Shown: piece by piece, positions 2,850 through 50,751 of the stretch
Position numbering within the stretch: the first letter of the stretch is position 1
Layout: each line of letters opens with the position of its first letter
Assembly (NCBI RefSeq): GCF_011065895.1
Contig: NZ_JAALCR010000005.1
Location: 248,001 to 312,000, forward strand
Reading direction: 5' to 3'
Length of the DNA: 64,000 nt
Origin: Paludisphaera rhizosphaerae
GTDB lineage: Bacteria > Planctomycetota > Planctomycetia > Isosphaerales > Isosphaeraceae
Notes under the pieces: model-generated
What the model saw: the letters and a program-made list of their open reading frames with translations, nothing else
Databases searched by the model: none
What the model was told of the DNA's origin: nothing
Translations under genes and position numbers: made by a program

Positions 2850-3905
2850 ATGACGAAGCGTCGGGGTTTCACCTTGATCGAGCTGCTGGTGGTCATCGCG
2901 ATCATCGCGGTACTCATCGCCCTCTTGCTCCCCGCCGTCCAGGCCGCCCGCGAGGCCGCCCGCAGAGCCCAGTGCGTCAACAACCTTAAGCAGCTCGGCT
3001 TAGCGGTCCACAACTACATATCCGCTAACGAGGCGACCCCGTCCCAGTGCATGCCCTACCGAACGACGGCCCTGGACGACTGGGGCTTCAACTGGTACAC
3101 GGCCCTCCTGCCGCAACTTGAGCAGCAGGCGCTTTTCAGCTCGGTGAATTTCTCCATCAGCCCGTGGGACGCCGCCAACACCACGTCCGGCTACACCCAA
3201 CTGTCGGCCTGGATCTGCCCCTCGGAATCCAATCCGAGCCGCCGCTACGGTGCCTACTCGGTCGCCAACTATGTGGGAAATTACGGCGGTCCGGCAGCCG
3301 TCCGCGCCTATTCCGGGGTGATCCTGCCGACGGTCAACCTGATCACCGAGACCGGCCTGGGCTACCTGGCGAGCGTGCCGACGGTCCGCACGGCCTCGTT
3401 CACCGACGGGATGTCCAACACCGGCCTGTTCAGCGAGCGGCTGCTCGGGCCCCCGGACGGGACGACGCTTCAGGCCGGGACTGCCGACGCCAGGCGCGGG
3501 ATCTTCCAGCTTACGACCGGGGCCCTGGCGAACACCGGCGAGGCCGGCGCGCGGGCGTTCGTTGCTGAGTGCCGGGCGATGACCGGGACGGCCGTCGCGC
3601 CCAACGGCCAACTCCTGGGCCGGATGGCTTTCCCCGGCTACCCGGCGCACCTGGGCCTCTCCAGCTACGTCCACTACGCTCCGCCGAACAGCCCGTCGTG
3701 CAAGAACCCGGCCTCGTTGGAGCCGTCGTTCGTCCTCGTCGGCCCGATCAGCGCGGCCTCGGCCACCAGCAACCACCCGGGGGGGGTCGTCATGGCCATG
3801 GCCGACGGCTCGGCGCGGTTCGTCAAGGATACGGTCAACCTCCAGGCTTGGTGGGCTCTCGGCTCGCGAGACGGCGGCGAAGTCATCTCGTCCGACGCCT
3901 ATTGA
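2850..3905 (+). CDS. DUF1559 protein with prepilin-type N-terminus
   Basis: 351 residues. The N-terminus [20 protein letters not shown] is a type IV prepilin/pseudopilin methylation site and hydrophobic helix, followed by [20 protein letters not shown], the hallmark start of the planctomycete DUF1559 family. The C-terminus has the H[16 protein letters not shown] block and ends GEVISSDAY. These proteins are exported and probably assemble into or decorate pseudopilus-like envelope structures; the true function is unknown. It sits 50 bases after the anti-sigma-like gene and 62 before a lipoprotein gene, all one strand. The start was chosen because only from here does the prepilin peptide have the usual short basic leader. 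Confidence 0.92.
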
Positions 3906-3967
3906 TGACACCCGGCCGACGGGCCGGGGCCGGCCGAGACCACCCAGGAAGGAACGAGATCGAACAC

Positions 3968-4177
3968 ATGAACATGAGAACCGGCTTTCTGATCGTCCTG
4001 CTCTGCGCATCGGCGGCCGGCTGCGGCAACGGCCTGGTGGAGGGGATGCCGGTCGACGCGCCCCCGGCCCCAGGGCCGCCCGAAGACCTGACCGGCCCCA
4101 TGTCCGAGCATCGTAAGAGCATGGCGAGGAACAGCCGCCGCGGAGCCCAGCCTCGCGGCGGCGCTCGGCCGCAATGA
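3968..4177 (+). CDS. Small putative lipoprotein sharing its tail with the anti-sigma-like protein
   Basis: 69 residues. A hydrophobic signal (FLIVLLCASAAGC) ends in a lipobox-like ASAAGC, predicting cleavage before the Cys and lipid anchoring. The mature part is short, Pro-rich, then basic (NSRRGAQPRGGARP). Residues 27-57 align without gaps with the end of the 2323-2799 product, sharing GMP, PP-x-PGPP, G and HR-xx-MA. An AAGGAA site lies 13 bases upstream, a little far. It closes the sigma/anti-sigma/DUF1559 cassette. Function unknown; it could be a processed signal or an assembly factor for the DUF1559 protein. Confidence 0.7.
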   Translation: MNMRTGFLIVLLCASAAGCGNGLVEGMPVDAPPAPGPPEDLTGPMSEHRKSMARNSRRGAQPRGGARPQ

Positions 4178-4211
4178 GAAGGCCGGCGTCGCTGCGGCGG
4201 ACCGGATCGGA

Positions 4212-4871
4212 TCAGAGGTCGAACGGACAGCCCGAATACTCTTCGTCGGGCGCCTGGGAGACGTCTAGCGGCTGCTCGGCCGTCCCCGAGAGTGCGGCGA
4301 GAGTCGCGCCCAGTTCGCGAAGCATGCCCGTGGAGTAGCCGGGCCAGTGCTTGACGATCCGCCCCTGCCGATCGATCACGACCACGTATGCTGAGTTCTC
4401 AACTCCGTAGTCGCGGACGATCTTGAGATCGGGGTCGGTCAACATGGGGTAGGCGATGCGAAGACGCTCCGCCCACCTCTGCGCCGGCCCTCCTTCGACG
4501 TCCACGACGCCCAGGAACTCGACGCCGGGATAGGCCTTGTCCAGTTGGTTGAAGAACGGCTGGGCGGCCTCGCTGCAGGGGCAGCCGGCCTTGATGAAAG
4601 TCAGGACGACGGGCCCGCGACGGAGCCGTTCGGCGAGTTCGACTCGATCGCCGTTCAGCGCGGATGCGACGAACGGCGGAGCCGGTCGACTCACCATCGC
4701 CCGGCTGGCGTCGGCCATCTCCTTTGTGACCAGGTGCTTGGGCGTGCTTTCCAGGATGACCAGTTCGCCGGGCGTCGGCCCGCCCGGGTCGCGATGGATT
4801 CGCGCCCAGGCGTAGAGTCCGCCGACGAAGAGGACGGCGGCGCAGAGCGCCGCAGTCGCAAGACGACTCAT
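4212..4871 (-). CDS. Membrane-anchored peroxiredoxin/TlpA-like thioredoxin-fold protein
   Basis: 219 residues. An N-terminal hydrophobic segment (about 5-24) anchors or exports the protein. The rest is an AhpC/TSA-type thioredoxin fold: VVLTFIKAGCPCSEAAQPFF places a CPC pair (C97, C99) where peroxiredoxins have the peroxidatic Cys, followed by a VEFLGVVDVEG strand and the AYVVVIDRQGRIVKHWPGY segment near the conserved fold end. It is probably an envelope thiol oxidoreductase or peroxidase. GAGGAGG lies just before the ATG, 10 bases after the DUF1559 gene upstream, so the two form an operon and the thiol enzyme may act on exported Cys-containing proteins. Confidence 0.82.
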   Translation of the reverse strand: MSRLATAALCAAVLFVGGLYAWARIHRDPGGPTPGELVILESTPKHLVTKEMADASRAMVSRPAPPFVASALNGDRVELAERLRRGPVVLTFIKAGCPCSEAAQPFFNQLDKAYPGVEFLGVVDVEGGPAQRWAERLRIAYPMLTDPDLKIVRDYGVENSAYVVVIDRQGRIVKHWPGYSTGMLRELGATLAALSGTAEQPLDVSQAPDEEYSGCPFDL

Positions 4872-4881
4872 TTCGGCCTCC

Positions 4882-5937
4882 TCAGAACGCGTCGGAGGAG
4901 ACGACCTCGCCGCCGTTGCGGGTCGCGATTCCGCGCCACGTCGGAAGGCTGATCGAGTCCTTGGCGAACTGGCAGTGGCCGTCGCAAAACAGAACGTTTA
5001 CGCCGCCCGAGTGGTTGCTGCGGGCGGCCTTCCACGCCGGGTTGTGCGGCGGGCTCGACTGCCAGCAGTCGTAGAGCTTGGAGTTCGGCGTAAGGTAGTG
5101 GTTGTAAAGGCTGGTCCGGTAGTCGCCGTCCCACCAGCCGAAGCCCTTGTCGAGCCGCCAGCCGCTCGGGGTGGAGCAACCGGCGTCCGAAAGCGGGGTC
5201 GATCCGATCGCGGCGGCCCGGCGCACGTCCGACGGCATGGGCGTCGCCCCAGTCTGGGTCGAGGCGCCTCCGGCCGCCGGGCCGATCAACTGCTCCGACG
5301 CGGCGGCCGTGTTGCTCGACCCGTCGGCGACCGAGGCCACCGACTGCGCCGGCCCCAGCACGAAGGCGCCGTTGGGAACGACGGTTAATCCCGCGTCGCC
5401 CGGATTCGCGCTGCCGGGCGATCCGTCCCCCGTGCAGAAGTGGTAATTGCTCGGCCCCGAGGTCAGCCCGCCGGCCAGCGGCGAGGGGGGCGTGGCGGGA
5501 TCGCTCGGGCAGAGGAAGAAGCTCACCTTCGCCGACATGACCGTGAGATTCGTCGGGAACGGCGTCCAGGGGGCGGTGCCGAGGACGGTCGACGGGCCGG
5601 CCGCGATAGGCCAGTTCATGTTGAGCGCGTTGTAGACGCTCGTCTGCTCCAGGTACGGCGAAAGCTGGGCGAGAACCGACCAGCGGTAATGCAAGGCGGG
5701 CACCCCGGGGTAGACCTGGTTGTTTTGCGGATAGAGGAACCCCACCGGGAAGCAGTTGACCGCCGAATGGTAGTTGTGCAGCGAGATCCCGATTTGCTTC
5801 AGGTTGTTGGTGCACTGCATCCGCCGAGCCGCCTCGCGAGCGGCCTGGACGGCGGGGAGCAAGAGGGCGATGAGTACCGCGATGATCGCAATGACCACCA
5901 GCAGCTCGATCAGCGTGAAGGCTCGTTGACGTCGCAT
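4882..5937 (-). CDS. DUF1559 protein with prepilin-type N-terminus
   Basis: 351 residues. It starts [20 protein letters not shown] and continues [20 protein letters not shown]. It ends with the HSGGVNVLFCDGHCQFAKDS block and GGEVVSSDAF. It has Cys residues in PSDPA/YDCWQSS/FCDGHCQF regions that could form disulfides, which fits its operon with the CPC thioredoxin-fold protein 10 bases downstream. It converges with the DUF1559 cassette on the plus strand at 2850-4177. It is a paralogue rather than a tandem copy, since the middle parts differ. No strong ribosome site precedes the ATG; the start is fixed by the prepilin leader. Confidence 0.92.
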   Translation of the reverse strand: MRRQRAFTLIELLVVIAIIAVLIALLLPAVQAAREAARRMQCTNNLKQIGISLHNYHSAVNCFPVGFLYPQNNQVYPGVPALHYRWSVLAQLSPYLEQTSVYNALNMNWPIAAGPSTVLGTAPWTPFPTNLTVMSAKVSFFLCPSDPATPPSPLAGGLTSGPSNYHFCTGDGSPGSANPGDAGLTVVPNGAFVLGPAQSVASVADGSSNTAAASEQLIGPAAGGASTQTGATPMPSDVRRAAAIGSTPLSDAGCSTPSGWRLDKGFGWWDGDYRTSLYNHYLTPNSKLYDCWQSSPPHNPAWKAARSNHSGGVNVLFCDGHCQFAKDSISLPTWRGIATRNGGEVVSSDAF

Positions 5938-8063: not shown

Positions 8064-9632
8064 ATGTACGACGTAGCCGTGGTTGGAGGGGGCCTGGCGG
8101 GAATGGCGACGGCGGCGAGGCTCCAGGCGCGGGGGCTCTCGACGGTGGTTCTGGAGGGCCACGGCCAGCCGGGCGGCTGTGCGGGGTTCTACCGGCGTGC
8201 GGGGTTCTCGTTCGACGTCGGGGCGACGACTCTGGTGGATTTCGGCCCGGGGGGCCTGGGCGGCGAACTGCTGGCCGATTTGGGGGTCGATCCCGAGATC
8301 GAGATGCTCCCGGGGTATGTCGCGTGGTTGCCGGATCGTCGGGTGACGTTGCATCGGGACGCCTCGGCGTGGGCCGTGGAGCGGATGCGGGCCTTCGGCG
8401 ACACCCCGGCGCATCGAGCCTTCTGGGGGCTGATCGACCGGCTGGCCGAGGTCTTCTGGCGGGCGAGCCGCAACGGCGTCAAACTGCCGTTCCAGAACCC
8501 GGCCGACGTGTTCCGGGCCGTCCGAACCATCGGCCTGAGGGATCTGTTTCTGGCTCGCCATCTGAACCGGACGATGGCCGACGCCCTCCGATCGGCCGGT
8601 CTACGGAAGGACAAGCCACTCGCGGGGATGCTCGGAATGCTCGTCGAAGACACCGTCCACAGCACGCTCGAGGACGCCCCGCTGATCAACGCGGCGCTCG
8701 GGGTGACGATGCGAGGGGCCGGCATTGGCCGAGCTCGGGGTGGGATGCGGGGATTCTGGCGGCGGCTGACGGCGCGCTACCGCGAGTTGGGGGGCGAGAT
8801 TCGCGTCGGCCGAGCGGTGGAGCGGGTCGACGGCCGCGAGGGATCGTTCCACATCCAGACGCGTCGCGACCACCTGACGGCGGCCCGCGTGGTGATGGCC
8901 GTCCCGCCGCCGATCGCCGCGAAGATCGGACCTCCCGAGTTGAACGAGGCGCTCAAGCCTCACCTGCGCCGCAACGCCGATGCGATGGGCGGCGCCATGG
9001 TCGTCTTCCTGGGCGTGCCCGAGCGCGAGGTCGACGGCCAGACCTTCACCCACCACCAGCTCATGCAGGACTACGACCAGCCGCTCGGGAATGGTAACAA
9101 CATGTTCATGTCGGTATCAAGTCCCGGCGACGTCGAGAGCGCCCCGGCCGGCTTCCGGGCCGTGATGATCTCCACGCACTGCGAGTTGTCGCCGTGGGAG
9201 GGGCTCTCACCCGAGGACTACGCCGCCCGCAAGCGCGAGGCCGGCGACCGACTGTTGACCCTCGCCCGACGGGTCTTCCCGAACCTGGGCCAGTCAGCGG
9301 TGGTTTACGAGGTGGGCACACCCCGGACCTACGCACGGTTCACGGGTCGTCCCCGAGGGGCCGTGGGCGGATCAAAGCTGACCCCCTCGATCGCCAACCA
9401 GAACGCGATCCCCCACGACGTCGGCGTTCCCGGAATCCGGCTCGTCGGCGACGGCGTCTGGCCGGGCCTGGGGACCGTCGCATGCTGCCTCGGGGCGAAA
9501 ATCGTCGCGGAGCAATTGCTCCAAAGCAAAGGCTGGGACTCCCGCCGCGCGATGCGTCGAGGATTGCAGAACGAACGCCAGGAACGGGGAAGGCTCGGTG
9601 GCACAATGGCGGGAACGACGACCGGAGGCTGA
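8064..9632 (+). CDS. FAD-dependent oxidoreductase of the phytoene desaturase (Crt) superfamily
   Basis: 522 residues. The N-terminus YDVAVVGGGLAGMATAARL is a Rossmann dinucleotide-binding motif, followed by VVLEGHGQPGGCAGFYRRAG, where phytoene desaturases have E-x-x-x-x-x-GG-x-x-x-T. The C-terminus GIRLVGDGVWPGLGTVACCLGAKIVAE matches the second FAD-contacting motif of this superfamily. Substrate is likely a carotenoid or another isoprenoid/lipid, but no other carotenoid gene is nearby, so specificity is open. A CGGAGG site lies 8-12 bases before the ATG. The gene is divergent from the NHL gene and convergent with the MFS gene. The last 35 residues are basic and look like a non-conserved extension. 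Confidence 0.82.
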   Translation: MYDVAVVGGGLAGMATAARLQARGLSTVVLEGHGQPGGCAGFYRRAGFSFDVGATTLVDFGPGGLGGELLADLGVDPEIEMLPGYVAWLPDRRVTLHRDASAWAVERMRAFGDTPAHRAFWGLIDRLAEVFWRASRNGVKLPFQNPADVFRAVRTIGLRDLFLARHLNRTMADALRSAGLRKDKPLAGMLGMLVEDTVHSTLEDAPLINAALGVTMRGAGIGRARGGMRGFWRRLTARYRELGGEIRVGRAVERVDGREGSFHIQTRRDHLTAARVVMAVPPPIAAKIGPPELNEALKPHLRRNADAMGGAMVVFLGVPEREVDGQTFTHHQLMQDYDQPLGNGNNMFMSVSSPGDVESAPAGFRAVMISTHCELSPWEGLSPEDYAARKREAGDRLLTLARRVFPNLGQSAVVYEVGTPRTYARFTGRPRGAVGGSKLTPSIANQNAIPHDVGVPGIRLVGDGVWPGLGTVACCLGAKIVAEQLLQSKGWDSRRAMRRGLQNERQERGRLGGTMAGTTTGG

Positions 9633-9743
9633 TCCACCGGCACCGAGGGCGGTTTTCATGGCGACGGCGACGAGGACGGACGCCTACGGCGCGGCGGCGG
9701 AAGGCGAGACGCGGATCCGAACGGCGGGCGTGTCGTAGGACTT

Positions 9744-11213
9744 CTACGCGCTGTTCGTCGAGGCTTCCTCGGCCGACAACGGCCGGGCGACCGATTCCAG
9801 CGAAGCCCCCTCGGCCTTCACGCCGAAAACGAGAACGACGCCCACCGTCGCGATCAGGAGGACGGCCGCGAAAAGGTCGCCGTAGAAGAGGTTCGTCCGC
9901 GACCGGCTGTCGATCAGCGAGCCGAACAGCCAGGGGGCCAGCGTCCCCCCGACGAGCGTGCCGGTGGCGAAGAACAAGGCGATCACCATGCCGCGCAGCT
10001 CGATGGGGAAGATCTCGCTTACCGTCAGATAGGCCGAACTGGCGGCCGAAGACGCGAAGAAGAAGACCAGCGCCCAGAGCGCCGTCTGTGTGCCCGGCGT
10101 CAGAACGTCGATCCAGAACAGCCATCCAGTGAGAGCCAGCAGCACGGCGGCGATCGTATACGTCCCAGCGATCATGGGCTTGCGACCCACGGTGTCGAAG
10201 AACCGGCCCAGGGTCACCGGCCCGAGGAAGTTGCTGAACGCGAACGGGAGCAAGTAAAGCCCCACGCGGTCACGCTCCACGCCGAAGAAATTGGCGAGCA
10301 CCAACGGCATCGTGAAGAAGACGCCGTTGTACAGGAACGCCTGCGAGACGATCAGCGCCAGGCCCAGCGCCGTCCGACCGGGGTAGGTCCTCAGCATCAC
10401 CCCCGCCAGCTCGCCGAAGCCGATCGGCCCCCGGGGCTTGATCGCCATCTCCTCGTCGACCTCTGGCAACTGACCGACTTTCGGGTCGGCCTCGATCTCC
10501 TTCTCCAACTCGTCGACGACGCGTTCGGCTTCCTCGGGCTCGCCGTGCGTGAGCAACCACCGGGGGCTCTCCGGAACATGCTGACGGAGGAAGATCACGA
10601 CCAACCCGAGTGCCGCCCCCAGGCCGAAACCCAACCGCCAGCCCACGTTGACGTCCAAAAGCCGACGGTCCAGCAGGACGATGCTGGCCAGCGAGCCGGC
10701 TGCCGCGCCCAACCAGAACGTTCCGTTTACCGCCAGGTCCGTCCATCCCCGCACCCGCGCCGGGATCAACTCGTCGATGGCCGAGTTGATCGCCGAATAC
10801 TCGCCGCCGATCGCCGCGCCGGTCAGGAACCGGAATATCGCGAAGCTCCAGAAATCCCATGAGAAGGCCGTTGCACAGGCCGCTGCCAGGTACAGGCCCA
10901 GCGTCACGGTGAACAGTTTCTTCCGCCCCAGACGATCGGTCAGCCAGCCGAAGACCAGAGCCCCGGAAACCGCCCCCGTCAGGTAAGCCGTCCCCAATAG
11001 GCCGATCTGCGAGCCCGTGAAGTGGAGCGTCCCCGGATCCTCCAGCACAGCGCCGAAGGAGCCGATCAACGTCACCTCAAGTCCGTCGATGATCCACGTC
11101 ACCCCCAGCGCCGCGATCACCAACCAGTGCCAACGGCTCCAGGGGAGACGGTCCATCCGGGCGGGGACCTGAGTCCGAAATGATTCCGACGTGGTCGGCG
11201 AGACAGTCGTCAT
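9744..11213 (-). CDS. MFS transporter (sugar/metabolite-proton symporter type)
   Basis: 489 residues with about 12 membrane helices. Signature motifs are visible: FGWLTDRLGRKKLF between helices 2 and 3 (GRK/R motif), ESPRWLLTHGE at the end of helix 6, which is typical of sugar-porter and metabolite:H+ symporter families, and GRFFDTVGRKPMI between helices 8 and 9. The central loop is acidic and Glu-rich (about residues 215-255). Substrate unknown; the family takes up sugars, organic acids or aromatic acids. AGAGG lies 9 bases before the ATG. It is convergent with the FAD enzyme gene and divergent from the 11405 gene, and appears monocistronic. Confidence 0.87.
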   Translation of the reverse strand: MTTVSPTTSESFRTQVPARMDRLPWSRWHWLVIAALGVTWIIDGLEVTLIGSFGAVLEDPGTLHFTGSQIGLLGTAYLTGAVSGALVFGWLTDRLGRKKLFTVTLGLYLAAACATAFSWDFWSFAIFRFLTGAAIGGEYSAINSAIDELIPARVRGWTDLAVNGTFWLGAAAGSLASIVLLDRRLLDVNVGWRLGFGLGAALGLVVIFLRQHVPESPRWLLTHGEPEEAERVVDELEKEIEADPKVGQLPEVDEEMAIKPRGPIGFGELAGVMLRTYPGRTALGLALIVSQAFLYNGVFFTMPLVLANFFGVERDRVGLYLLPFAFSNFLGPVTLGRFFDTVGRKPMIAGTYTIAAVLLALTGWLFWIDVLTPGTQTALWALVFFFASSAASSAYLTVSEIFPIELRGMVIALFFATGTLVGGTLAPWLFGSLIDSRSRTNLFYGDLFAAVLLIATVGVVLVFGVKAEGASLESVARPLSAEEASTNSA

Positions 11214-11404
11214 ACGGCCGAACCTCTTACGTACTTAGAAGAAGGAAGCCCTTCCGTTCCCCCCCTGCCTTCGCACGCCTCATGCCGATGTGGTCCTGCC
11301 GCGACAGGCTGAGACCGGCCGACTTGCGAAAATAGGGTGGATAGGAAAGAATGGAAGGCAATCCGAGAGTGACGTCGCGAGGCAGGCATCGGGGAGGCGG
11401 CAGC

Positions 11405-28488: not shown

Positions 28489-30126
28489 TCATTCAAGCTT
28501 CTTCATCAGAGCGTCCAGGCGTTCCTCGATGCGGTTGAGTTGGTCCTGGATTTCAAAGGCCGTCGGCTCGCGACGAGGTTGTTCCCGCTTCGGCTGAGGA
28601 GGGGATGGAGCCGCGACGACTCCGGCCGGTCGACTCGGATTCGCCGGCTTCAATTTGTTGACGATCACGCGATCACCGTGGCGGATCGGGACGTTGACGG
28701 CGTTCTCTTCCCCCTTGAGCAGGCCCTCGACGTCCACAACCTCCGTTTGAGCCTGGCCGGGCCGAGGTTTGTCGTGAACGACAAGTACGCGACGCCCGTC
28801 GGCCTCGGAGTTCAAACCTCCGGCATAGAGGACGGCGTCGAGGATTTTGTCCCCTCCCGTCCACGGAAACTTGCCCGGCTGGGCGACTTCGCCCAGGACG
28901 TAGTAGGGCTTGCTGTTGTAGGCCGTGACGTCGACGAAAACTCGGTCGCTGTCTTTCGGATCGATGGGGTCGAGCTTGCCGGTCTCGGGATTCATCGCGA
29001 CGAGTCCCAGGATCTCGTCGTTTAGGTATTTCTTCAGATGGAGGACGATCTTCTCCTTCACCTGTGGGATGGTCAGGTCGGCGACCTCGACTTCTCCATA
29101 GAACCCCAGGCTGATTCGACCGTCGGGACGGACCAGTCGCTCCCCCGAAATCGGCCGGCCTTCCAGGGCGTCGAGGACCTCGACGAGCAGCAGGTCGGGC
29201 GGATCAACGATGTAATCCGTTCGGACCGACGCGGGAGGCCGCTTCGGATCGTCGAGGTCCTTGGCCTTCGCCTTCACGGACGAGCGGTCTTCCTGGGTGG
29301 CGGCCGCCCTGACCAGGCCGATCGAGGCGACGATCGCCAGGATCGCGACGAGGCTCGTGGAAACCAACTTCGACATCAGCATGCTCCTCATCAATCGATG
29401 GGCCAGTTCCATTGCATAGGCTCCGACGACCCCCTCCGCCGACCTTCCCGCGACGGTCTCGGCCGCTCCCCTGGCGGCGGCGAGAGCCAGCGAGGCGGGA
29501 ACAGACGGCGACGGGGTCTCAACCCCCTCAGGCGCAAGTCCTCGGCGGGCGAGCCTTCGCCGTAAGAGATCCCGGGCCCGGGCCGACCGGCTCCGCACCG
29601 TGCCGATCGGGCATCCCAGGCGAGCCGCGGCTTGCTCCTGCGTCAGCCCCTCCCAGAAGCAGAGGACGATGATCTCGCGGTAGCGAGCCGGCAGGCGCCC
29701 GACCTCCTCTTGCACCGCCAGGGTGTGGCCGACCTCGGATAGCTCCTCGCCCACCACCGCGAGGCGAACCGCGGAACGCTCGCGACTGCGGCGTCGGGCT
29801 GCATCGGCGCGGGCCCGCGCCGAGACGCGTCGCGCCACGCCGTACAGCCAGCCGCCGATCGATTCGAAGCGAGTTGCCTCGCGGAGCCGATGGGCCAGGA
29901 CCAGGAACGTGGCCTGAAAGGCGTCGTCGGCGTCGTGGATGTTCCCCAACTCCCCCCGACAAACCCGCAGGACCATCGGCCCATGCCGCTCCACGATGAT
30001 CCGGAAGAACGTCTCGGCCTCGTCGTCCGCCGCTCGCGCAACGCGCCGGAGCACCTCGCCGTCCGTCAACCCGATCGCCGTCCCCGACTGGAAAAGCGTC
30101 GACAGTTCCCTCGCCGCTTCCGCCAT
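28489..30126 (-). CDS. Membrane-tethered ECF sigma factor fused to a polysaccharide-export (Wza-like) and SLBB domain
   Basis: 545 residues in one frame. Residues 25-110 are sigma region 2 (HDADDAFQATFLVLAHRL; GGWLYGVARRVS), 140-192 are region 4 (LPARYREIIVLCFWEGLTQEQAA, then CPIGTVRSRSARARDLL). An Ala-rich linker leads to one membrane helix at about 253-275 (SKLVSTSLVAILAIVASIGL). The outer part has a polysaccharide biosynthesis/export domain at about 303-405 (YIVDPPDLLLVEV; RPDGRISLGFYGEVEVADLT) and an SLBB-like segment at about 408-490 (PYYVLGEVAQPGKFPW), ending in a short coiled coil. ATG 30126 is chosen over 30246 because GGAGGG lies 6 bases upstream and family members begin here. It probably senses or couples to envelope polysaccharide. 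Confidence 0.88.
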   Translation of the reverse strand: MAEAARELSTLFQSGTAIGLTDGEVLRRVARAADDEAETFFRIIVERHGPMVLRVCRGELGNIHDADDAFQATFLVLAHRLREATRFESIGGWLYGVARRVSARARADAARRRSRERSAVRLAVVGEELSEVGHTLAVQEEVGRLPARYREIIVLCFWEGLTQEQAAARLGCPIGTVRSRSARARDLLRRRLARRGLAPEGVETPSPSVPASLALAAARGAAETVAGRSAEGVVGAYAMELAHRLMRSMLMSKLVSTSLVAILAIVASIGLVRAAATQEDRSSVKAKAKDLDDPKRPPASVRTDYIVDPPDLLLVEVLDALEGRPISGERLVRPDGRISLGFYGEVEVADLTIPQVKEKIVLHLKKYLNDEILGLVAMNPETGKLDPIDPKDSDRVFVDVTAYNSKPYYVLGEVAQPGKFPWTGGDKILDAVLYAGGLNSEADGRRVLVVHDKPRPGQAQTEVVDVEGLLKGEENAVNVPIRHGDRVIVNKLKPANPSRPAGVVAAPSPPQPKREQPRREPTAFEIQDQLNRIEERLDALMKKLE

Positions 30127-30263
30127 GCGCGCCCTCCGGTTCCCTGGCCCAGACAAGCCCTTGAACTCTCCACATAGTGCCGCGAGGGACCGCGAGCTAT
30201 CCATGAGTTCGAGGAATTTGCGATAAACTTTGGAAGTCCGGTCCACTGCACGGAGCGCCAGGC

Positions 30264-48421: not shown

Positions 48422-50092
48422 CTAGCGTGGGTCGCTCGGGGAGGGTACGGCTTTTCTCGCCTCATTGACGCGACGTAGGCCGTCGAGGAATTCCTTGACC
48501 TGACGCTGGACCTCGGCCGTCTGCCGCACAGTGACCATGAGAGGTCGGTTCGGGTCGACCTCGTGGCCGCCTTCCGGCGATGACTTGACGACGTGCGCGA
48601 AGTAGGGGCGCAATGTGCCACGTCCGCCTTGCGTGACCCAGCTCTGCGACTCGACCTTCGCAGCGATCAATTCCAGGAGAGGCCAGGCCGGGTCCGGGAT
48701 CGCATCTTGATCTTCGACCGGACCGGGAGCGATCCCGAGCAACTCGCCGATCTCATAGCTTCGGTTGACGAGTTCCGTCGCGGGGACGATCGGGCTCACA
48801 GGAGGCTGGGGGTTCGCAGCCAAGCGGGACGGGGGAGCCCCATCGACTGACGAGACGAATCCGGGTGGGCTCGGCATGGTCGGCGTCGGCGGTGCGGGCG
48901 GAAGCAACGCCGGCGGGGCGTCGAGGCGAGCCGCCTGGAGCCGCCTCAACCCCGTTAAGAGCCTACCGATGCGGTCGTGCGTCGACCGGTCCTGGCGGAT
49001 GAGCATGCTGAGGTTCAGGGGAAGCGGCTTGATTTGCGGGCCTGCTTGACCGCCCTGTTCCCAGGTCTCTGGCGCGATCGTCCGCGTGATCAGTCCGGCC
49101 AGTGCGATGAAATCGGCGTCCGTGATCGCGCGGCCGTCCGGGATGCTGCCGTCGGCGCCGAGGATGTCCCCGACGTAGTAGGTCCTGAGCAGGTAATCCC
49201 CGTCGCCGGTCCTGGGCGCGATCGGAGTCGGGGCCGTGGGCTTCGCGGTCGGCTGCCCGGGCTGGCCCTGGGCGAAACCGGCCACGCCCACCCCCGCCGC
49301 GGCGACCATCAACAGGACCGCGGCGCTCGTCTTGATCTTGGTCATCAACAGGCCTCCTTGGACTTCACGGGTCAACAAAGCGACGGCCGCGGGGACGGCC
49401 GTCGCGCCTCCGGCACAGGCGAAGGCCTTCGGGATCGGGGCGACGGCGGACGCCTCCTCGGCCGCCAGGGCGAGCCAGGCGGCCGTCGAGAGCGTGACGC
49501 CCCGTCGCCGCAAGCGATCCGCCAGCAGGCTGCGGGCCCGAGAGTGGCGGCCGGAGAGGGTGCCGATCGGACAGCCCAGCCGGTCCGCCGCCTCGCGGTG
49601 CGAGCAACCTTCGAGGTCGCACAGGACGATCGGCATGCGGTACTTCTCCGGCAGGCGGATCAGTTCGCGGTCGAGCGTCTCGACGAGCATGCCGCGCGGG
49701 TCGGTGGGCGTCGTCCAGGGCTCGTGGGCGTCCCCCTGCACTTCGCGCAGCCTGCGACGGGCTCGGATCGCCCGCGCCTTCAAGGCGGTCCGGCAGGCGA
49801 CGCCGTAAAGCCAGGCGACGAGCCGGTCGCCGGGGCGGACGACATCGGCCCGGCGGGCGAGGACCAGGAACGTCGCCTGGAAGGCGTCGTCCGCGTCGTG
49901 GTGGTCGCGCAGGATCCGACGGCAGACGCGCCAGACCATCGGCCCGTGACGCCCGACGAGCACCTCGAAGGCGGCCGGCTCGCTGGTCGCGACGAACCGA
50001 TCGAGCAGAACATCGTCCGGGAGCGACCCGATCGCCCCCGCCTGGATCAGCGTGCGAAGTCCGTCTACGGTCCCTTTCACCGATTCACCCAT
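48422..50092 (-). CDS. Membrane-tethered ECF sigma factor with duplicated extracytoplasmic domain
   Basis: 556 residues. Sigma region 2 at about 25-110 (HDADDAFQATFLVLARRAD; WLYGVACRTALKARAIRARRR) and region 4 at about 140-195 (LPEKYRMPIVLCDLEGCSHREAADRLGCPIGTL). An Ala-rich linker leads to one membrane helix at about 252-273 (TKIKTSAAVLLMVAAAGVGVAG). The outer part has two copies of one domain, about 300-390 and 445-546, each with Y-x-(V/I)-G-(D/E)-(I/L)-LG, an I-x-x-x-(I/V)-x-x-x-(S/T)W-x-x-GG block, and a terminal ...QVKEFLDGLRR-like helix. This resembles secretin/STN-type domains common in planctomycetes. Start 50092 is chosen by comparison with the paralogue at 28489-30126. Confidence 0.85.
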   Translation of the reverse strand: MGESVKGTVDGLRTLIQAGAIGSLPDDVLLDRFVATSEPAAFEVLVGRHGPMVWRVCRRILRDHHDADDAFQATFLVLARRADVVRPGDRLVAWLYGVACRTALKARAIRARRRLREVQGDAHEPWTTPTDPRGMLVETLDRELIRLPEKYRMPIVLCDLEGCSHREAADRLGCPIGTLSGRHSRARSLLADRLRRRGVTLSTAAWLALAAEEASAVAPIPKAFACAGGATAVPAAVALLTREVQGGLLMTKIKTSAAVLLMVAAAGVGVAGFAQGQPGQPTAKPTAPTPIAPRTGDGDYLLRTYYVGDILGADGSIPDGRAITDADFIALAGLITRTIAPETWEQGGQAGPQIKPLPLNLSMLIRQDRSTHDRIGRLLTGLRRLQAARLDAPPALLPPAPPTPTMPSPPGFVSSVDGAPPSRLAANPQPPVSPIVPATELVNRSYEIGELLGIAPGPVEDQDAIPDPAWPLLELIAAKVESQSWVTQGGRGTLRPYFAHVVKSSPEGGHEVDPNRPLMVTVRQTAEVQRQVKEFLDGLRRVNEARKAVPSPSDPR

Positions 50093-50751
50093 CCCTGAAA
50101 CGTGGCTCGATCTCCCGACCACAACCCAGGATTACCCGATGGGGATGCATCTCATACGTTTTTTTCCGAGACGGAACCGGAGAAGCAGATCTCCCCGCAG
50201 CGTGAGTCCCTCGGCGTTTCGTTCGAGTTGAACCGAGGGAGGCCGACCGCAGACGCGGGAAGCTGGGCATTCACCCTTGGCCCTCCATTCATTTCAATCA
50301 CCAGACTCGTCGAATTCAGCTGCCTCGACGCGACTGAGGGTCGAGATTCTCGATCACCATCGTGGTTTTGGAACCCTAGTCGCGATAGAGGACGCGATCA
50401 AAGAACGGCCGGCGGCGACGCCAGGCCTGGATCTTGTGAGGCTCCCGTAGGCGATCACGTTGGGGACGGACGCGACGAGCGTCTCGACGAAAATCGCCGA
50501 ACGAAGCCACGGCCCGACTCAACGCAACCATCACGAAAACAACGATTTACACGGCCGCCACGACGTCGCTCGCCCCGGCGATCGAACCCATTTCGGACCC
50601 GAGGGCGTCGAGTCGCGGTGGGTAGTCGACGGTGTGGCGTGCGGCTCATTGACAATTCGGTGGGATCGAAACGACGGGCTTGCCGGACGTGTCCTCGCTC
50701 AACAACACCATCACTCGCCGGGTGCCGTTTCGGGATCGAGGGTTGAAGTCG

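Follow-up and report, generated by a model that had tools for sequence, protein, structure and literature searches.

In most cases, an ECF sigma factor depends on a second protein, a membrane anti-sigma factor. What is an ECF-type sigma factor doing in the same polypeptide as a membrane helix and a polysaccharide-export domain? A gene on the minus strand of a 64,000-nucleotide stretch of Paludisphaera rhizosphaerae DNA raises this question. We refer to the whole stretch as the window; the surrounding genome, from the genus Paludisphaera (Isosphaeraceae), comprises 8.05 Mb. A preliminary description, made from the letters alone, had proposed that the export domain is a sensor that ties transcription to the export of capsule or stalk polysaccharide.

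An unbroken sigma-export fusion

A single frame of 545 codons runs on the minus strand from an ATG at 30126 to a stop at 28489, with no internal stops. Its product has ECF sigma regions 2 and 4 in the N-terminal part, which a linker connects to a single membrane helix; Poly_export and SLBB domains follow, then a Pro-rich spacer, and a coiled coil forms the C-terminus. This architecture is given alike by Pfam, by solved structures and by an AlphaFold2 model, and the one-frame reading of the preliminary description stands. The features are as follows:

30176..30202, minus: promoter-like element of two boxes, GGATAG-N15-GGCACT, conserved in orthologues and located some 50 bp ahead of the ATG
28489..30126, minus: whole gene, sigma-TM-OPX/SLBB-coiled coil, 545 aa (open frame and one-frame orthologues)
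29794..29997, minus: sigma-70 region 2, residues 44-111 (Pfam PF04542 Sigma70_r2, 6.9e-9)
29569..29718, minus: sigma-70 region 4, residues 137-186 (Pfam PF08281 Sigma70_r4_2, 1.6e-14)
29377..29541, minus: helical linker, residues 196-250 (model helices 211-225 and 236-274; motif known from paralogues)
29311..29367, minus: single transmembrane helix, residues 254-272 (Kyte-Doolittle mean 2.49; model helix 236-274)
29017..29226, minus: Poly_export domain, residues 301-370 (PF02563, 1.2e-10; Wza fold, Z 16.6)
28660..28905, minus: SLBB domain, residues 408-489 (PF22461 SLBB_2, 8.6e-9; also PF10531)
28495..28560, minus: C-terminal coiled-coil tail, residues 523-544, with the motif RL...E.(K/R)LD..(L/I)

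A frameshift artefact or an assembly join of two genes is ruled out by full-length orthologues from other genomes, each in one frame with the same order of parts and at 44-61% identity. In five other Paludisphaera genomes the match spans both halves, at 55-61% identity. The open frame can be extended mechanically to a GTG at 30246, but the ATG at 30126 is the likely start, because the conserved element at 30176-30202 falls within that extension.

All of the Pfam matches in the protein (Sigma70_r2, Sigma70_r4_2, Poly_export and SLBB_2/SLBB) lie above the curated cut-offs. At the N-terminus, regions 2 and 4 are joined by a short linker and regions 1 and 3 are absent, which is the hallmark of ECF sigma factors; the NCBIfam family TIGR02937 (sigma70-ECF) scores 66.4 bits against a cut-off of 42.9. 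A sequence search of solved structures leads from the N-terminus to ECF sigma factors and from the C-terminus to Wza, and residues ~20-200 of the model match the fold of many ECF sigma factors (VIA-align). The model was computed from 24 sequences and has a mean pLDDT of 82, with low confidence at the N-terminus, in the linker between the sigma regions, at 275-300 and in the Pro-rich spacer near 497-517. Its pTM is low, at 0.40, so that it does not fix how the domains are placed relative to one another.

The extension is part of the same chain as the sigma factor, and no anti-sigma gene lies beside it; these two properties mark ECF sigma factors with a C-terminal regulatory extension. Pfam gave no match to an anti-sigma domain between the sigma and outer parts at E up to 10. 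In the model, a short helical linker sits where IutY/ECF243-like proteins have their anti-sigma domain, and the protein may contain a very short or divergent anti-sigma helix.

The one hydrophobic helix lies where the preliminary description had placed it (residues 253-275). Three Lys/Arg are found in the 20 residues before it, and four Lys/Arg with five Asp/Glu in the 20 residues after it. This charge bias is not clear, so we assign the topology by analogy with these types of domain, which would place the sigma factor in the cytoplasm and the OPX part outside.

The ectodomain resembles an exporter without lipid anchor and C-terminal segment

Poly_export followed by SLBB is the hallmark of OPX proteins, and it is seen here by Pfam and by fold, in agreement with the preliminary assignment. 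Residues 297-492 of the model adopt the Wza fold, with Z 16.6 and rmsd 2.4 over 165 residues (VIA-align). The Wza structures matched are 7xff (Z 16.6) and 2j58 (Z 16.2), at 29-30% identity, and the class-3 OPX protein WzaB (9n9a) gives Z 14.0 with rmsd 7.2. NCBIfam TIGR03027 (XrtA/PEP-CTERM exopolysaccharide export) matches below its cut-off. Wza_C, the outer-membrane helix of class 1 OPX proteins, has no Pfam match in the protein, whose tail consists of the Pro-rich spacer and the coiled coil.

Stand-alone OPX proteins start with a lipobox (CGCQTV) and end in a conserved C-terminal segment (RDPIVRTTIFLDRLAAPFQTVINS...). Both features are absent from the fusions, in which spacer and coiled coil form the end. 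With the lipid anchor and the C-terminal segment absent, the fused domain can hardly be an outer-membrane channel subunit like the stand-alone protein. The two also differ in conservation, given here as mean identity across six Paludisphaera species. In the fusions, the sigma regions reach 72 and 79%, Poly_export 74%, with many invariant residues, and the SLBB half 49%, compared to 92% for the stand-alone OPX domain and 78% for its next 40 residues.

The same genome encodes about 20 sigma paralogues, most of which have a like linker and membrane helix followed by differing ectodomains. These are HlyD (two proteins), OEP/TolC-like, AhpC/TSA (two proteins), CarboxypepD_reg, DHOR (dihaem oxidoreductase) and DUF1559; several have no Pfam match. 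The linker motif, VP..L...T..A ... L..G.L..M...K, is recognisable in the paralogues. The motif of the coiled-coil tail is common to paralogues with other ectodomains, and the tail is also present on two non-sigma proteins of the genome, which argues that it belongs with the signalling protein and not with the exporter. One of these two proteins (L234, G000:C5:232103) has BlaR1/M56-like peptidase features, as read from its sequence. The window itself holds a second sigma protein of the family (48425-50122, minus strand; Sigma70_r2 and r4_2), which has a membrane helix and whose outer part is of no recognised type.

Overall, the loss of the lipobox and C-terminal segment, the interchangeable ectodomains, the faster drift of the SLBB half and the private upstream element described below support the view that the fused OPX domain descends from an exporter but serves as a sensor. 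On this point the earlier proposal of a sensor gains support.

Distribution and history of the fusion

The preliminary description had suggested looking for the fusion in other planctomycetes, and it is widespread in the family. We surveyed 45 Isosphaeraceae genomes from 21 genera; the members compared include Paludisphaera soli JC670, Aquisphaera insulae and Singulisphaera acidiphila DSM 18658. A sigma-TM-OPX fusion with the full OPX domain in one frame is present in 25 of these genomes and 11 of the genera, and a few further Isosphaeraceae genomes have the Poly_export half only, or a split one. Across 297 genomes of the class, full-length matches are restricted to Isosphaeraceae at a strict threshold (E 1e-48) that divergent fusions could escape. 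In family f3, sigma proteins of the same family carry other C-termini.

A tree of sigma sequences places 17 of the fusions in one clade (98/87). The spread over 25 of 45 genomes, with 17 members in a single sigma clade, indicates that the fusion is no accident. The remaining OPX fusions fall among other sigma paralogues, and the data reject a single clade that unites the sigma parts of every OPX fusion (AU p 0.0017). For the OPX parts, one clade of all fusions against the ordinary stand-alone proteins is not rejected (AU p 0.53). One reading of these trees is a regulatory OPX lineage that has been paired with more than one sigma factor; several independent captures of OPX by sigma factors are also possible.

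Stand-alone OPX genes accompany the core fusion in 15 of 17 genomes, the remaining two being drafts that are 83 and 89% complete. They are also found in genomes that have no fusion, so the stand-alone protein is the more general and probably the older part. In genus g13, an OPX gene without sigma part lies directly 3' of the fusion, branches inside the fusion clade and has retained the coiled-coil tail. A fusion gene directly followed by an OPX gene with the same tail and a domain within the fusion clade is seen at four loci (L066, L068, L069 and L070), where the second gene may be a copy of the fusion minus its sigma part. Elsewhere, four OPX-like genes stand in tandem (L096, G008:C8, 4049-8979).

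A two-box element precedes the gene

The element GGATAG-N15-GGCA[CT]T, with an exact 15-nt spacer, is found ahead of 16 of 17 core orthologues, at a distance of 28-79 bases from the assumed start. The 17th orthologue (L072) is one base off, with TGCACT as its second box. Conservation is 97% and 91% in the boxes, compared to 48-61% in the spacer and flanks. Over whole genomes, the exact element is found at a single place in each of six Paludisphaera genomes, every time before the sigma-OPX gene, while a reversed control pattern yields about 0.7 sites per genome across the family. Its position, its spacing and its restriction to one sigma clade fit an autoregulated promoter of ECF type, and suggest that this putative promoter is dedicated to the sigma factor's own gene. 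Alternatively, the two boxes may be the binding site of another regulator.

We found no second strict site beyond the sigma-OPX gene in the six Paludisphaera genomes. When up to two mismatches were allowed, 7 sites were found against 37 for the reversed control, and no regulon beyond the gene itself is visible. Likewise, neither the strict nor the relaxed element has conserved targets beyond the gene itself in its own genome, the six Paludisphaera genomes or the 45 Isosphaeraceae genomes. Two sets of candidates were discarded. A site before ispE in two Aquisphaera genomes is missing the leading T of the element and may reflect shared ancestry. Three near-matches at C4 140-153 kb, a region that contains an exosortase/Wzz polysaccharide locus, are within reading frames or not before a polysaccharide gene and were attributed to chance. 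That locus (L226, G000:C4:145336-151400) holds exosortase-like, Wzz-type and sugar-transferase-like genes, with no OPX gene among its predicted frames.

Similar pairs of boxes occur elsewhere in the sigma family. A second sigma gene with no OPX domain adjoins the fusion at L070 (G016:C1046, about 3800-5620) and bears GGATAG-N15-GGCATT. In genus g7, an OPX fusion on another sigma factor (L087 and L088) has its own conserved upstream pair, GGATTG...GTGCAGTA, and some sigma paralogues have upstream pairs resembling GGAACC-N16-.CA(C/T)TA; these pairs hint at one promoter per sigma factor. A general promoter pattern for the paralogues matches 7 of 34 upstream regions against 0.27 expected, a figure to be taken as a lead only, since the pattern was drawn after seeing the sequences.

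Gene context and polysaccharide export

The neighbours of the fusion in the window encode EamA, phytase, DUF1559, DUF4058, polyketide-cyclase-like, AI-2E transporter, GDSL lipase and SASA/ThuA proteins. Neither an anti-sigma gene nor a polysaccharide gene is among them, the former as the preliminary description had noted. Conserved neighbours of the fusion are found within related genera only, and none is polysaccharide-related. The other two OPX (Poly_export) genes of the genome (C13 and C23) and its two Wzz-type genes (C4 and C60) all lie away from the fusion, and the stand-alone OPX genes are likewise outside polysaccharide loci. With no adjacent polysaccharide gene, OPX and Wzz genes elsewhere and no second strict site, the context lends no support to the proposed tie between transcription and capsule or stalk polysaccharide export, and the co-occurrence with capsule loci that this proposal led one to look for did not appear beside the fusion.

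The stand-alone OPX gene at C13 adjoins a tyrosine-phosphatase-like gene, an arrangement kept in several genera; at L101 (about 9346-11300), the stand-alone gene in this position encodes an OPX lipoprotein. In known systems the tyrosine phosphatase Wzb regulates Wzc (PMC9603273), so this neighbour is no more than suggestive.

A model for signalling across the membrane

We favor, at a probability of roughly 0.55, a one-protein transmembrane signalling sigma factor with a tethered ECF part, an OPX sensor outside and a private promoter of its own. The ECF-type sigma factor (regions 2 and 4) would be held on the cytoplasmic side of the inner membrane by its own helix, with the class-3-like OPX domain and coiled-coil tail outside as the sensor. 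Most likely, the ectodomain would pose as a subunit and in this way report on the condition of an OPX assembly or of its polymer. In response to the signal, the sigma factor would be freed or re-oriented, either because the tether changes or because regulated proteolysis cuts the chain close to the membrane. Finally, the sigma factor would drive its own gene from GGATAG-N15-GGCACT, and possibly a small set of others. We infer the topology, the signal, the release step, the targets and the role of the element as the sigma factor's own promoter; intramembrane proteolysis and the capsule link, both raised in the preliminary description, have the same standing. Genes for site-2 proteases (M50) are present in the genome, which is weak evidence for release because such proteases are near-universal.

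The release step is where the closest competitor departs from this model. The sigma factor might work, or become available, at the membrane without any proteolysis, its availability being altered by oligomerization of the OPX domain, much as the activators ToxR and CadC work while membrane-bound. OPX proteins with the Wza fold are ring-formers, and the conserved coiled-coil tail could also oligomerize. Additionally, no conserved cleavage motif is evident, and the membrane helix, at 43% identity, is the least conserved structured part up to the SLBB domain. However, sigma factors travel with core RNA polymerase, which is harder to do at the membrane than it is for a DNA-bound activator to act there, and the membrane-fused sigma factor that has been studied, IutY, is released by Prc and RseP (PMC8999054). 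We consider a permanently tethered activator possible but clearly less probable than the signalling sigma factor outlined above.

We find it unlikely that the ectodomain functions in export as an OPX subunit while the sigma factor does no more than feed back on its own synthesis. In favor of this reading, conservation of the Poly_export half equals that of the sigma half, the sole strict promoter-like site is the gene's own, the g13 fusion directly precedes a sigma-less OPX gene, and class-3 OPX proteins function without an outer-membrane helix (PMC9603273). Against such an exporter stand the drift of the SLBB half relative to the stand-alone domain (49% against 92%), the missing lipobox and C-terminal segment, the lack of an adjoining polysaccharide gene and the paralogues that bear non-exporter ectodomains at the same place. 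Least probable of all is that a sigma-TM cassette joins secreted proteins at random and that this ectodomain was never selected for sensing: the unrelated ectodomains of about 20 paralogues in one genome and the scattered sigma parts of the OPX fusions (AU p 0.0017) would fit such shuffling, but the core clade is conserved across genera, with Poly_export at 74% identity and many invariant residues, and the OPX parts could all belong to one lineage (AU p 0.53), which favors a module that has been retained.

The signalling model may extend to the paralogues. Several of their recognisable ectodomains are parts of envelope machines, and we tentatively raise the idea that Isosphaeraceae possess a whole class of one-protein envelope monitors. 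Each membrane-bound sigma factor would carry a decoy subunit of one machine or enzyme, sense by mixing with its subunits and fire its own private promoter. More speculatively than for the fusion itself, the decoys could then be a Wza-type exporter, an HlyD adaptor, a TolC-like duct, a pseudopilin-like DUF1559 and thiol or haem proteins.

Comparison with known systems

Membrane-anchored sigma factors with C-terminal sensors are already known. To our knowledge, the few fused ECF sigma factors that have been studied all carry an anti-sigma domain. Similar to the sigma-OPX protein, IutY of Pseudomonas putida (ECF243) combines an ECF sigma factor, a membrane helix and a periplasmic part in one chain (PMC8999054). 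In IutY, however, the extension is the anti-sigma factor of iron cell-surface signalling, whereas the sigma-OPX protein has no Pfam anti-sigma match and an OPX ectodomain. SCO4117 (ECF52, Actinobacteria) has a sigma factor, a C-terminal membrane helix and a Pro-rich, carbohydrate-binding outer part (PMC8999054). ECF52, like ECF48 and ECF53, shares with sigma-OPX the C-terminal membrane helix, but these actinobacterial groups have a zinc-finger anti-sigma-like part; in the sigma-OPX protein, Pfam matched neither a zinc-finger anti-sigma part nor a carbohydrate-binding module, and the outer part is of Wza type.

Among export proteins, the ectodomain is similar to class 3 OPX proteins (WzaX, WzaS and WzaB of Myxococcus), which have Poly_export and SLBB without an outer-membrane helix. 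Those proteins are secreted or lipoproteins and, where studied, are encoded with porin and polysaccharide genes (PMC9603273), whereas here the domain shares its chain with a sigma factor and a membrane helix. With Wza of E. coli (class 1 OPX), the protein shares the fold of residues 297-492 (7xff and 2j58, Z about 16), but it has no lipobox, a single SLBB match and no C-terminal outer-membrane helix.

In the literature searched, whose reach did not extend to the main ECF and planctomycete classification papers, we found no sigma factor with a Wza/OPX sensor. What is new is the two-box element before the gene and, as far as that literature goes, the Wza/OPX sensor on a sigma factor. The near-unique upstream element offers a ready reporter, with which the promoter code of a so far unstudied sigma class could be deciphered. 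Compared with the systems above, the sigma factor has a direct tether, and its sensor can be recognised as a component of a secretion machine; the identity of this component suggests what the signal may be, and the suggestion lends itself to testing.
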